Source: Pararhodobacter sp. SW119 (GTDB lineage: Bacteria; Pseudomonadota; Alphaproteobacteria; Rhodobacterales; Rhodobacteraceae). From it: DNA of 64,000 nt. This document shows, one piece after another, positions 3,454 through 9,355 of this stretch (position 1 is its first letter; each line of letters begins with the position of its first letter). Where the stretch lies: contig NZ_JADDJF010000014.1 in assembly GCF_017811755.1 (NCBI RefSeq), positions 1 through 64,000 on the forward strand, in the 5' to 3' direction. The translations under genes were made by a program, and so were the position numbers. Below the pieces are notes generated by a model, which was given only the letters and a program-made list of their open reading frames with translations, searched no databases and had not been told where the DNA came from.

Positions 3454-3471
3454 GGCCAAGATTTCTTGGCC
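3454..3471. repeat. Perfect inverted repeat at the edge of the IS1595-like remnant
   Basis: GGCCAAG-ATTT-CTTGGCC is a perfect 7-bp inverted repeat with a 4-nt loop. It sits exactly where the exported-protein frame stops making sense and immediately before the transposase coding region. It may be part of the element's left end or a hairpin limiting transposase expression. No matching copy was seen at the degraded right side. Confidence 0.45.
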
Positions 3472-3960
3472 ATGCCTCATCGACTCGTCAAACGCCCCGC
3501 CGACAACATCACTTTCGCCGAGAGCGAGAAGGTCGCGTCGGACGAAGCCACGTACCTCGCGCTTCTTGAGCGCCTGCGCTTCCCCAGCGGCATTCGCTGC
3601 GTTTCATGCGGTGCCTCCGAGGCTGCCGGGCAGTGGCGCCGCCGCTCGCGACCCGGTTTCTTCTCTTACGGTTCGTGCCGTCGTCAGTTCACACTCACCT
3701 CCGGCACGGCGATGCACCGCACCCGATTGCCTCGCGGTCAATGGCTTAGCGCCATCTGGCTGATCTTTGCCTCCAGCAAGGGCGTCTCGGCCCGCAAGTT
3801 GTCGGAGATGCGGGCATCACCTACAAGGTCGCGTGGCGCTTCTGCCATCGCATCCGCGCGATGATGACCCATGAAAGCGTCGTGCTGTCGGGAATCGTGG
3901 AGATGGATGAAATCGACGCCGCCGCACCGCCGCGCGCGTCACACCCAAAACCTAAATGGC
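3472..3960 (+). pseudogene. IS1595-family transposase, frameshifted and truncated
   Basis: The first frame (start ATG 3472, open from 3466) shows the zinc-ribbon region of IS1595 transposases: IRCVSCG, then FFSYGSCRRQFTLTSGTAMH, and the signature LPRGQWLSAIWLIFASSKGVSARKLSEM. One cysteine of the second CxxC pair is replaced (YGSC). Near 3810 a one-base deletion moves the reading to another frame, which continues GITYKVAWRFCHRIRAMM and VLSGIVEMDEID, including the first catalytic Asp region of the DDE domain. After about 3960 no further homology is recognisable, so the catalytic domain is lost. The element cannot be active on its own. Confidence 0.75.
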
Positions 3961-4164: not shown

Positions 4165-4226
4165 GCGCGAGGGCGCGAGGGCGCGAGGGCGCGAGGGCGC
4201 GAGGGCGCGAGGGCGCGAGGGCGCGA
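4165..4226. repeat. Tandem 8-bp repeat, seven perfect copies of GCGCGAGG plus a partial
   Basis: Seven identical GCGCGAGG units run from 4165 to 4220, followed by GCGCGA before the sequence changes to TCGATCGCC. Because 8 is not a multiple of 3, all frames stay open and give artefactual Ala-Arg-Gly-Glu peptides. Copy number is likely to vary by slippage. The array sits between the insertion-sequence graveyard and the 3' side of ectR. Confidence 0.95.
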
Positions 4227-4413: not shown

Positions 4414-4938
4414 TCAGAACTCGCCGGGATAAAGCACCGCGCCGCGCTCCGCCTCTCCGGCGTCGAGCATCGTCGCCACGCGCTCCAGCGCCGCGACGAT
4501 CATCGCCTGCTCCCAGTCCTCCAGCGCCTCGAACGCGGCGGCGAAGCGTTGCTGCAGCGCATCCGGTGCCCGGCTCAGCGCATCCTGCCCCTTGTCGGTC
4601 AGCGCGATGATGGTCTGGCGGCGGTCCGCATGGCTGCGTTGACGTTCCACATGGCCCGCACGCTCCAGCTTGTCGATCATCGAGGTGATGGTCGCCGGCG
4701 CCACATGCATGCGCCGCGCGATAGCGCCGCCGGTGCTGGTGCCGGTTTCCGCCACGATCTGCGCCACGCGCAACTGCACCGGCGTCATCCCGGCGGCCTG
4801 CGCAAGTTCCTTGCCGTGCATCTCCGTCGCCCGAAGGATTCGGCGCAGGGCGATAAGGCAATAATCGATCCGCTCCATCGCGCGCCCAAGATCCTTCCGA
4901 ATGACGACACAATACCGTTCTGATGGCTGATTGGTCAA
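4414..4938 (-). CDS. ectR: MarR-family regulator of the ectoine operon (EctR type)
   Basis: This 174-residue protein has a MarR winged helix-turn-helix: recognition region STGGAIARRMHVAPATITSMIDKLE (about 67-91) and wing GHVERQRSHADRRQTIIALTDKG. It is transcribed divergently from ectA, the usual position of EctR, which in characterised halophiles represses ectABC at low salt. The ATG at 4938 gives a slightly long N-terminus; the in-frame Met at about residue 21 (MERIDYCLIALRRILRATEMHGKE) is an alternative start closer to the family length. The ectABC-regulating role is inferred from position and family, not from a demonstrated binding site. Confidence 0.85.
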   Translation of the reverse strand: MTNQPSERYCVVIRKDLGRAMERIDYCLIALRRILRATEMHGKELAQAAGMTPVQLRVAQIVAETGTSTGGAIARRMHVAPATITSMIDKLERAGHVERQRSHADRRQTIIALTDKGQDALSRAPDALQQRFAAAFEALEDWEQAMIVAALERVATMLDAGEAERGAVLYPGEF

Positions 4939-5106: not shown

Positions 5107-5637
5107 ATGAAGGATATGATCGAGACCCCCGCGTCGAAGGCGCCCAGTTTTCGCAAGCCCGCGCCCGAGGATGGCAGCAATGTATGGGCATTGATCCGTG
5201 CCTGCGAGCCGCTGGACGACAACAGCATGTACTGCAACCTGATCCAGTGCGATCACTTCGCGGACACCTGCATTCTGGCCGAACTGGACGGTGTGCCGGT
5301 GGGGTGGGTCTCGGGCTATCTTCTGCCTGACGCGCCCGACACGCTTTTTGTCTGGCAAGTCGCCGTCGCCAAGGAAGCGCGCGGACTGGGCCTGGCCAGC
5401 CAGATGCTGGACCGGCTTCTGTCGCGCGAGGACATGGCGGGCGTGCTGCACCTGAAGACCACGATCACCCGCGACAACAAGGCGAGTTGGGCCCTGTTCG
5501 GCAGCCTTGCCGAACGCCACGGCGGAAAGCTGACCGACGAGCCACACTACCGCAAGGATGACCATTTCGACGGCGAGCATGCCACCGAATACCTGGTCAG
5601 CATCCGCTTTCCCGCGCCGGTAGCCCGCGTCGCCTGA
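5107..5637 (+). CDS. ectA: L-2,4-diaminobutyrate acetyltransferase (EctA)
   Basis: This enzyme transfers an acetyl group from acetyl-CoA to diaminobutyrate, the second step of ectoine synthesis in the cytoplasm. The 176-residue protein is a GNAT-fold enzyme. The acetyl-CoA loop reads VAVAKEARGLGLASQML (about 83-100), and the family blocks SMYCNLIQCDHFADTC, TTITRDNKASWALF and HATEYLVSIR are present. It opens the biosynthetic operon with ectB 92 bp downstream. The ATG at 5107 has only a modest ribosome site (AGGATCG). Confidence 0.97.
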   Translation: MKDMIETPASKAPSFRKPAPEDGSNVWALIRACEPLDDNSMYCNLIQCDHFADTCILAELDGVPVGWVSGYLLPDAPDTLFVWQVAVAKEARGLGLASQMLDRLLSREDMAGVLHLKTTITRDNKASWALFGSLAERHGGKLTDEPHYRKDDHFDGEHATEYLVSIRFPAPVARVA

Positions 5638-5729: not shown

Positions 5730-7019
5730 ATGCCGACTGACATCTCAGCGGATACTGCCGTTTTCGACCGACGCGAAAGCGCCGCTCGCAGCTACTGCCG
5801 CAACTTTCCGACCGTCTTTACCAAGGCCAGCGGATCGATCCTGACCGACGCGCAGGGTCGCGACTACATCGACTTCCTGGCCGGCTGCTCGTCGCTCAAC
5901 TACGGGCACAACGACCCCGACATGAAGGCCGCGCTGATCGATCACATCAGCCGCGACGGCGTGACCCACGGGCTCGACATGTTCACCGACGCCAAGGCCG
6001 CGTTTCTGGAGACGTTCGAGCGCCTGATCCTGACCCCGCGCGGCATGGACTACAAGGTGATGATGACCGGCCCCACCGGCACCAACGCCGTCGAGGCCGC
6101 GATCAAGCTCGCGCGCAAGGTGACGGGGCGGCGCAACGTCGTGGCCTTCACCAACGCCTTCCACGGCATGACGATGGGCGCGCTGGCGCTGACCGGCAAT
6201 TCCGGCAAGCGTGAGGGCGCCGGCGGCGGCAGCCTGGCCGACGTCACCCACATGCCGTTCGAGAACGCGATGGGCGACAAGGACACGCTCGACTACATCG
6301 AATGGGTCCTCGACAACCCGTCCAGCGGGATGGACGACCCGGCCGCCTTCATCGTCGAGCCGGTGCAGGGCGAAGGCGGGCTGAACGCCGCCAGCGCCGA
6401 ATGGCTGCGCGGCATCCAGCGCCTGGCGCGCAAGCATGGCGCGCTCTTCATCATCGACGACATCCAGTCGGGCATCGGGCGCACCGGCCCCTATTTCAGC
6501 ATCGAAGGCATGGGGCTGGAGCCGGACATGATCACCCAGGCCAAGTCGTTCAGCGGCATGGGCCTGCCCTTCGCGGCGCTTCTGATCAAGCCCGAGCACG
6601 ACATCTGGAAGCCGGCCGAGCACAACGGCACCTTCCGCGGCAACAACCACGCCTTCGTCACCGCCCGCGTGGCGCTGGAGAAGTTCTGGTCGGACGACGC
6701 GTTTGAGAAGGACACGATCCGCAAGGGCGAGATGCTGCGCGACCGGCTGGCCGGCATCGCCGCGATGATCCCCGGCGCGACCCTCAAGGGCCGCGGCATG
6801 ATGCGCGGGATCGATGTCGGCAACGGCGATCTGGCCAGCGCCATCTGCGCCGACTGCTTCAAGGCCGGCCTGATCATCGAAACCTCGGGCGCGCATGATG
6901 AAGTCGTCAAGGTGCTCGCCCCCTTGACCACGTCCGACGAGATTCTGAACAAGGGTCTGGACATTCTGGAGGGCGCAGTCCGCGCCCAGGCCGGGAATGT
7001 TCCGATCGCAGCGGAGTAA
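5730..7019 (+). CDS. ectB: Diaminobutyrate--2-oxoglutarate transaminase (EctB)
   Basis: This 429-residue class III PLP aminotransferase makes diaminobutyrate from aspartate semialdehyde using glutamate as amino donor, the first step of ectoine synthesis. Visible signatures are GPTGTNAVEAAIKLAR and the PLP-binding aspartate in LFIIDDIQSGIGRTG. The Schiff-base lysine is Lys272 in ITQAKSFSGMG. The C-terminal family block KGRGMMRGIDVG is also present. Length matches the family. A GAGGTACCCC ribosome site precedes ATG 5730. The stop is separated from the ectC start by only 4 nt. Confidence 0.97.
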   Translation: MPTDISADTAVFDRRESAARSYCRNFPTVFTKASGSILTDAQGRDYIDFLAGCSSLNYGHNDPDMKAALIDHISRDGVTHGLDMFTDAKAAFLETFERLILTPRGMDYKVMMTGPTGTNAVEAAIKLARKVTGRRNVVAFTNAFHGMTMGALALTGNSGKREGAGGGSLADVTHMPFENAMGDKDTLDYIEWVLDNPSSGMDDPAAFIVEPVQGEGGLNAASAEWLRGIQRLARKHGALFIIDDIQSGIGRTGPYFSIEGMGLEPDMITQAKSFSGMGLPFAALLIKPEHDIWKPAEHNGTFRGNNHAFVTARVALEKFWSDDAFEKDTIRKGEMLRDRLAGIAAMIPGATLKGRGMMRGIDVGNGDLASAICADCFKAGLIIETSGAHDEVVKVLAPLTTSDEILNKGLDILEGAVRAQAGNVPIAAE

Positions 7020-7023
7020 CACC

Positions 7024-7407
7024 ATGATCGTCAGAGATTTCAACGAACTGAAGAACACCGACAAGGCCGTCAGCGACGCCCGCTGGACCAGCGTGCGGAT
7101 GCTGCTGGCCAACGATGGAATGGGCTTTTCCTTCCACATCACCACGCTGGAGGCCGGGTCCGAGCACCAGTTCCACTACAAGAACCACTTCGAGAGCGTC
7201 TACTGTATCTCGGGCAGCGGCAGCATCACCGAGGTGGACACCGGCAAGACCCATCAGATCAAGCCCGGCGTGATGTACGCGCTCGACCAGCATGACAAGC
7301 ACATCCTGCGCGCCGACGAGGAACTGGTCATGGCCTGCTGCTTCAATCCGCCGGTGACCGGGACCGAGGTTCACCAGGCAGACGGCAGCTACGCCGCCTC
7401 ATCCTGA
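7024..7407 (+). CDS. ectC: L-ectoine synthase (EctC)
   Basis: EctC closes the ring of N-acetyl-diaminobutyrate to give ectoine. The 127-residue protein is a single cupin: MIVRDFNELKNTDKAV at the start, the metal/substrate block EHQFHYKNHFESVYCISG, and the second cupin motif ALDQHDKHILRA. The start at 7024 is chosen over an in-frame upstream codon because it gives the conserved MIVR N-terminus and sits after the ectB stop with an AGCGGAG ribosome site. Confidence 0.97.
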   Translation: MIVRDFNELKNTDKAVSDARWTSVRMLLANDGMGFSFHITTLEAGSEHQFHYKNHFESVYCISGSGSITEVDTGKTHQIKPGVMYALDQHDKHILRADEELVMACCFNPPVTGTEVHQADGSYAASS

Positions 7408-7425
7408 ACCGAACGCGTCTGATTG

Positions 7426-7505
7426 CGTTGCAAGGCTGTGCGCGTCCGCGCGCACCGAAAGCCGCCGAGGCGCCCGTGAAGGGACCGCGGCGGTGCCTTG
7501 CAACG
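7426..7505 (+). repeat. 11-bp inverted repeat framing the ectC-ectD leader
   Basis: CGTTGCAAGGC (7426-7436) and GCCTTGCAACG (7495-7505) are perfect reverse complements separated by 58 nt of GC-rich sequence that can itself fold. The right arm ends 20 nt before the GTG start of the ectD remnant. It could be an RNA structure that limited ectD expression, or the ends of a small inserted cassette. Confidence 0.55.
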
Positions 7506-7524
7506 TTCCGAATGGAGAAAGCGA

Positions 7525-7852
7525 GTGACAATTCATCAGCCTATCCGACACGGCTCAGACGCCTACCCGACCCGCCAGCGCGTCCGCGAAGCCGTCCTGG
7601 ACCGCCAGGACCCGGTGCTCTGGGGCCATTGGAGCGATGCCGCCCGGCACGCTGATCTTCTTCGACTGCAACACGATGCACGCCTCGAACAGCAACATCA
7701 CGCCGTTCCCGCGCTCGAACGCCTTCTTCGTGTTCAACGCCATCTCGAACGCGTTGCAGGACCCGTTCGCGGCCGCCGCGCCGCATCCGCCGCATCTGGC
7801 CCTGCGCGACACACCCGCGGGCATCGTGCCCGAAACCGGCAGTCTGGCCTGA
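7525..7852 (+). pseudogene. ectD: Ectoine hydroxylase remnant with large internal deletion (ectD)
   Basis: EctD is a dioxygenase of about 300 residues that converts ectoine to 5-hydroxyectoine. Here the first 35 residues survive from GTG 7525, with a GGAGAA ribosome site: DAYPTRQRVREAVLDRQDP. At about 7624-7630 the sequence jumps, in another frame, to the family's C-terminal block: GTLIFFDCNTMHASNSNI, then PFPRSNAFFVFNAISN. Roughly two thirds of the protein is gone. The HxD iron-binding pair and the 2-oxoglutarate site lie in the missing part; only the distal iron His (CNTMH) remains. Its place between ectC and the aspartokinase is the normal ectD position, which supports the identity. Confidence 0.88.
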
Positions 7853-7875
7853 TCGCCAGCGCCTGAACATCAAAC

Positions 7876-7900
7876 GGCGGCGCGGAACCGACGCGCCGCC
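7876..7900 (+). terminator. GC-rich hairpin between the ectD remnant and ask_ect
   Basis: GGCGGCGCG, a 7-nt loop, and CGCGCCGCC pair perfectly over 9 bp. It lies just after the ectD remnant and 18 nt before ask_ect, without a T run. It may be a partial terminator or a stabilising intercistronic structure, lowering aspartokinase expression relative to ectABC. Confidence 0.45.
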
Positions 7901-7918: not shown

Positions 7919-9355
7919 ATGACCGACAATCCCACCGCCCACACCGTTGAAAAGATCGGCGGCACTTCGATGAGCCGCCTGAAGGAATTGCGCGACACGC
8001 TGCTCGTCGGCGATCGCAAGGGCGCAGACCTCTACAACCGGATCTTCGTGGTCTCGGCCTTCGGCGGGATCACCAACCTGCTGCTGGAGCACAAGAAGTC
8101 CGGCGAACCCGGCGTCTACGCCAGCTTCGTCACCGCCTCCGAAGGGCATACCTGGCTTGCCGCGCTCGACCGTGTCGGCGAGGCGATGCGCGAGGCGCAT
8201 CACGGCATCCTCGAGCATTCCGCCGATCTGTCGCAGGCCGATGAATTCGTCCGCGACCGGATCGAGGGGGCGCGCTCCTGCCTTTTCGACCTGCAACGGC
8301 TGTGCAGCTACGGCCATTTCCGGCTGACCCAGCACATGCTGGTTATCCGCGAACTGCTGTCGGGACTGGGCGAGGCGCATTCCGCCTTCGTCGCGACGCT
8401 GCTTCTGAACCGGGCCGGGGTCGCGGCACGCTGCGTCGACCTGAGCGGCTGGCGCGACGAACGCGAACTGAACCTCGACGAAAGGCTTCGCGCCGGCTTC
8501 GAAGGGATCGACCTGACCGCCGAACTGCCGATCGTGACCGGCTACGCGCAATGCACCGAGGGGCTGATGGCCGAATACGACCGCGGCTATTCCGAGGTCA
8601 CCTTCTCGCGCCTCGCCGCACTGACCGGCGCCGCCGAGGCGATCATCCACAAGGAATTCCACCTTTCCTCGGCCGACCCGGGCCTTGTCGGGGCAGACGC
8701 GGTGCGCAAGCTGGGCCACACCAACTATGACGTCGCGGACCAGCTCGCCAACCTCGGGATGGAGGCGATCCACCCCCAGGCGGCAAAGACCCTGCGCCAG
8801 GCGGGCGTGCCGCTGCGCGTGACCAACGCGTTCGAACCGCATGACCCGGGCACGCTGATCGACGATGCACCGGCGGACAAGCCCGGAACCGAGATTGTCA
8901 CCGGCCTGCCGGTCATCGCACTGGAACTGTTCGAACCCGAGATGGTGGGCGTCAAGGGCTACGATTCGACGATCCTCGAGATCCTGAAGCGGCACGACGC
9001 CTTCATCGTCTCGAAGACCTCGAACGCCAACACCATCACGCACCATCTGGATGTCTCGCTCAAGGTCGCGCGCCGCATCGAACGCGACCTGCAACGCAGC
9101 TACCCGTCGGCACAGGTCACCGCGCGCTCGGCCGCCATCGCCTCGGCCATCGGCCGCGATCTGAGCGACCAGCGCGTGCTTCTGCGCGGGCTTCAGGCGC
9201 TGGAGGCCGCGGAAATCCCGATCCTCGCCGCGCAGCAGCCCAGCCGCAATGTCGACGTGCAGTTCCTGCTCAACCGCGATGACCTGAACCGCGCCATCAT
9301 CGCGCTGCACGCCGAACTGATCGAGACGCCCAAGGCCCAGCGCATCGCCGCCTGA
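7919..9355 (+). CDS. ask_ect: Ectoine-specific aspartate kinase (Ask_Ect)
   Basis: This enzyme phosphorylates aspartate to feed aspartate semialdehyde into ectoine synthesis. The 478-residue protein starts with the kinase motif KIGGTSMSRL. It carries the substrate-site region NRIFVVSAFGGITNLLLEHK and FSRLAALTGAAEAIIHKEFHLSSADP, followed by C-terminal ACT regions (VGVKGYDSTILEIL; VDVQFLLNRDDLNRAIIALH). Ask_Ect enzymes are a separate branch linked to ect operons and usually less sensitive to lysine/threonine feedback; that property is family knowledge. It is on the same strand as ectABC, 66 bp after the ectD remnant. Confidence 0.95.
   Translation: MTDNPTAHTVEKIGGTSMSRLKELRDTLLVGDRKGADLYNRIFVVSAFGGITNLLLEHKKSGEPGVYASFVTASEGHTWLAALDRVGEAMREAHHGILEHSADLSQADEFVRDRIEGARSCLFDLQRLCSYGHFRLTQHMLVIRELLSGLGEAHSAFVATLLLNRAGVAARCVDLSGWRDERELNLDERLRAGFEGIDLTAELPIVTGYAQCTEGLMAEYDRGYSEVTFSRLAALTGAAEAIIHKEFHLSSADPGLVGADAVRKLGHTNYDVADQLANLGMEAIHPQAAKTLRQAGVPLRVTNAFEPHDPGTLIDDAPADKPGTEIVTGLPVIALELFEPEMVGVKGYDSTILEILKRHDAFIVSKTSNANTITHHLDVSLKVARRIERDLQRSYPSAQVTARSAAIASAIGRDLSDQRVLLRGLQALEAAEIPILAAQQPSRNVDVQFLLNRDDLNRAIIALHAELIETPKAQRIAA

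Follow-up and report, generated by a model that had tools for sequence, protein, structure and literature searches.

Ectoine hydroxylase (EctD; TIGR02408, PhyH superfamily), which converts the osmotic-stress protectant ectoine into hydroxyectoine, is encoded in alphaproteobacterial ectABC-D-ask_ect operons, and an ectR-ABCD-ask_ect cluster has been described in Acidiphilium (PMC7824335). It is established for the family that the enzyme requires an HxD...H triad and the fold around it, and structural work on it has been described (PMC3979721). In a published survey, ectD was present in 314 of 510 predicted ectoine producers (62%; Czech et al., PMC5924519); ectoine-only producers carry ectABC-ask_ect without it. 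In the window, the whole 64,000-nucleotide stretch of Pararhodobacter sp. SW119 DNA analysed here, ectD occupies the same operon place, between intact ectC and ask_ect, with its first 40 and last 70 residues recognisable. Whereas the EctD genes of two sets of related operons (G004/L014 and L090/L107) are intact, here about 600 bp of catalytic core is gone and the two ends lie out of frame (Table 1). We conclude, with a probability of roughly 0.92, that ectD is here a unitary pseudogene, disabled by a deletion while the rest of the ect operon stayed whole, leaving no ectoine hydroxylase and an expected output of ectoine without 5-hydroxyectoine, as in ectoine-only producers.

Table 1 The ect operon of the window and the parts of its ectD remnant
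Feature	Position	Strand	Evidence
MarR-family regulator (EctR-like position), divergent from ectA	4414..4938	-	PF01047 E 1e-13
ectA, diaminobutyrate acetyltransferase, intact	5107..5637	+	TIGR02406 182.8 bits, cut-off 120.6
ectB, diaminobutyrate transaminase, intact	5730..7019	+	TIGR02407 594.4 bits, cut-off 552.2
ectC, ectoine synthase, intact	7024..7407	+	PF06339 E 1.7e-59, positions 1-125 of 127
Shine-Dalgarno-like GGAGAAAGCG and GTG start of ectD remnant	7512..7527	+	aligned with GGAGAAAGCGC-ATG in L002/L014
ectD 5' remnant, codons 1 to about 40	7525..7646	+	58% identity to L014 EctD residues 1-40, E 5.3e-10 (match 7525-7644)
Deletion junction	7637..7646	+	alignment; about 602 bp lost relative to L014
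ectD 3' remnant, codons 240-309 and stop	7640..7852	+	other frame than 5' remnant; TIGR02408 E 4.8e-21; 76% identical to L014
Fused frame-shifted ORF from ectD start	7525..7866	+	part of ORF 7498-7866
ask_ect, specialised aspartokinase, intact	7919..9355	+	NF006614 666.9 bits, cut-off 536

A first-pass annotation, made from the letters of the window, had described ectD as reduced to its two ends, and both ends indeed matched EctD. When the intact L014 protein was searched against the strain's own genome, its residues 238-309 aligned with 7634-7849 (74% identity, E = 6.3e-30) and its first 40 residues with the 5' piece, which is thus somewhat longer than the 35 residues originally proposed; the proposed C-terminal piece of about 70 residues agrees with codons 240-309. 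The C-terminal fragment (7637-7849, forward strand) scored 75.3 bits against TIGR02408 (profile positions 218-273 of 277), far below the curated whole-protein cut-off of 336.5 bits. A single reading frame of about 300 codons is absent, the fragments occupying two frames. From the start codon to codon 240 there are 717 nt in L014 and 115 nt here, so that 602 bp are missing and, as 602 mod 3 = 2, the frame is shifted at the join. The out-of-frame join of the first-pass annotation therefore stands, at about 7637-7646 instead of 7624-7630. Its retained ribosome site also stands, the Shine-Dalgarno-like element being common to the remnant and the intact gene; the retained start is GTG where the L014 counterpart has ATG. 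The catalytic core had been described as lost together with its HxD iron ligands; the HxD part of the iron-binding facial triad does fall in the deleted stretch, but the distal iron-ligating His of the TMH motif is still encoded in the 3' remnant. Because neither fragment can provide the complete triad and its fold, hydroxyectoine synthesis should be absent, a prediction from sequence that we regard as sound.

As initially annotated, ectA, ectB, ectC and ask_ect are intact, with full-length family matches that all exceed curated cut-offs, and ectABC and ask_ect are under purifying selection. We infer that ask_ect continues to be expressed.

To place the loss, we compared the locus with its relatives. 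The nearest relative found, a member of the same genus (G004), carries a complete ectD between ectC and ask, with a product scoring 361 bits, and its sequence at the ect locus is identical to that of the metagenome-assembled genome Rhodobacteraceae bacterium HLUCCA12 (L014); the marR-ectA-ectB-ectC-ectD-ask order is shared with the window. A second operon, in L090/L107, also has an intact ectD between ectC and ask. In a tree of EctB and EctC, the window was sister to L014 (support 86), and these two joined the ectD-less operons of three Paracoccus species, P. halophilus, P. marinaquae and P. isoporae, in a five-member clade (support 99). The remnant thus has ectD homology at both ends and is syntenic with an intact orthologue. 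Since that orthologue occurs in the same genus, the gene was once present and then lost, and since both ends remain in place, loss in the lineage of the window is the simple reading. Among the other members of the genus none had the same deletion: ectD is complete in G004, and the other carriers of ectC lack it between ectC and ask. The nearest Paracoccus operons (L011-L013), the closest ectD-less relatives, showed no recognisable ectD traces in their short ectC-ask spacers; unlike in those, the scar of the lost gene persists here. The locus thereby offers one tree-placed example of a hydroxyectoine producer becoming an ectoine-only producer by an in-place internal deletion, while the downstream gene for the aspartokinase that supplies the precursor stayed intact.

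The operon itself may have a mobile history. Genes for a MobA/VirD2-like relaxase and a MobC/NikA-like protein adjoin the ect operon in HLUCCA12 (L014 1735-3473), homology between the window and L014 is restricted to the marR-to-ask block, and other genus members carry distant ect versions, which together suggests that the operon moved horizontally. L014 and L011-L013 have a homologue of the MarR regulator in the corresponding position.

Under the proposed mechanism, an ancestral ectA-ectB-ectC-ectD-ask_ect operon would have lost about codons 41-239 of ectD, a stretch of 602 bp when measured against the nearest intact orthologue. The join shifts the frame, and with the deleted stretch went the HxD iron ligands and almost all of the double-stranded beta-helix. 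Illegitimate recombination, or recombination across a short homology, is the most likely cause, without an insertion element. If, as is usual, the lost gene coded for ...AAP at one breakpoint and ...GPPG at the other, a microhomology of 5-6 bp (CCGCCC) would have been available at the junction, a reconstruction rather than something seen. No large direct repeat was found at the two breakpoints of the intact orthologue in L014, and long repeats were rejected as a cause. An insertion sequence was likewise rejected, as the junction carries none and an IS1595-like fragment is some 4 kb away on the upstream side. That fragment (3466-3861), upstream of the ect operon, has a weak, below-cut-off match to the zinc ribbon of IS1595-type transposases.

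Sequence change within the remnant is consistent with a gene out of use for some time. With L090 as the sole outgroup and few changes over 110 codons, amino-acid changes in the C-terminal fragment numbered 9 private to the window and 0 private to L014, compared with 52:44 for the genes on either side (Fisher p = 0.0096), and the N- and C-terminal fragments together had 13:2 (p = 0.023). Relative to L014, pN/pS was 0.30 for the C-terminal fragment and 0.45 for the N-terminal fragment, a part of EctD that evolves fast in intact genes too, and 0.11-0.20 for ectA, ectB, ectC and ask. Two of the C-terminal substitutions are R291H, at a column invariant across 15 intact EctDs, and G260S, at a nearly invariant one. 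The excess of private changes fits relaxed constraint since the loss. As the C-terminal fragment has neither indel nor stop compared with L014, the loss postdates the divergence from that lineage, which fits an event that left time enough for some decay but not for erosion. The deletion had first been called recent; this holds in that it followed the L014 split and little has decayed since, within the limit that relaxed constraint is already visible. As gene losses go, this one is ordinary and fairly young.

Two other explanations would give the locus a different meaning. The genome is a 4.5-Mb draft (192 contigs, 100% complete; the ect operon is on contig C46), in which a collapsed or chimeric junction is conceivable, and the real genome could hold a complete ectD from which the assembler dropped about 600 bp. 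We consider this very unlikely, given that the two breakpoints of the intact orthologue share no direct repeat long enough for collapse, that the missing ectD core was found on no other contig and that the remnant carries excess amino-acid changes, one at an invariant column, as expected of a gene already out of use. Nor does another copy appear to supply the function. The first-pass annotation had called for a genome search for a second ectD, and across the 192 contigs neither TIGR02408 nor the full-length EctD sequence revealed one, nor did PhyH (PF05721) pick out a further gene; the sole additional match of the protein search, on contig C189, was weak (E = 0.015, 29% identity over 88 residues) and was rejected. 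Within the limits of the draft assembly, therefore, no intact copy was found elsewhere, as a unitary pseudogene implies.

The remnant could instead be retained for a function, either as a small protein (the 114-residue frame-shifted ORF or the 71-codon C-terminal fragment from ATG 7637) or by keeping translation going towards ask_ect. The fused frame is open from GTG 7525 to a stop at 7866, 53 nt ahead of ask, which could let ribosomes travel along most of the mRNA, and the lack of indels or stops in the C-terminal fragment would be expected as well were it still in use. We nevertheless regard retention as extremely improbable: the fused ORF has no family match in NCBIfam or Pfam, the remnant changes faster than its neighbours, stops are few in GC-rich DNA, so that an open frame of such length means little, and many related operons manage without ectD there, with an ectC-ask gap of only about 30-180 bp. 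Translation through the fused frame may still cover most of the messenger, which is speculation on our part; the deletion pseudogene remains our preferred reading.

Absence of ectD is common in the family, and pseudogenes formed by deletion are familiar. Among 395 family genomes, 128 had ectC, and about 15 of these had ectD: 14 with full-score matches and one, G237, with the gene in two abutting frames (contig C385, 3484-4291; profile positions 2-182 and 180-271). G237 is a 75% complete draft, and its split is either a frameshift or a sequencing error. It is a doubtful proposition that the family's dominant ectD-less ectABC-ask operons arose partly by repeated, independent in-place deletions of ectD, with the fusion here kept open-framed for ask_ect translation. 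Our literature search, mainly at title and abstract level, found no published report of this particular deletion. Loci of this kind also carry a practical warning, as automatic annotation may label the 3' fragment an ectoine hydroxylase.

Several structured or repeated elements accompany the operon. A GC-rich stem-loop lies directly before ask_ect in the window (7875-7900), in L014 (7760-7785) and in the L011-L013 spacers, its sequence differing, and is thus present with or without ectD in the operon. Folding of four of these gave z-scores of -2.45 for the window, -2.70 for L014, -2.41 for L013 and just -1.10 for L012, with L011 assessed by sequence only; the element may act in processing or attenuation. 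The stretch separating ectC from the ectD remnant contains, at 7425-7506, a long inverted repeat (CGTTGCAAGGC ... GCCTTGCAACG) with two further hairpins inside it (folding z -2.95). At 4165-4226, a perfect 8-bp tandem repeat, GCGCGAGG, is present in 7.8 copies.
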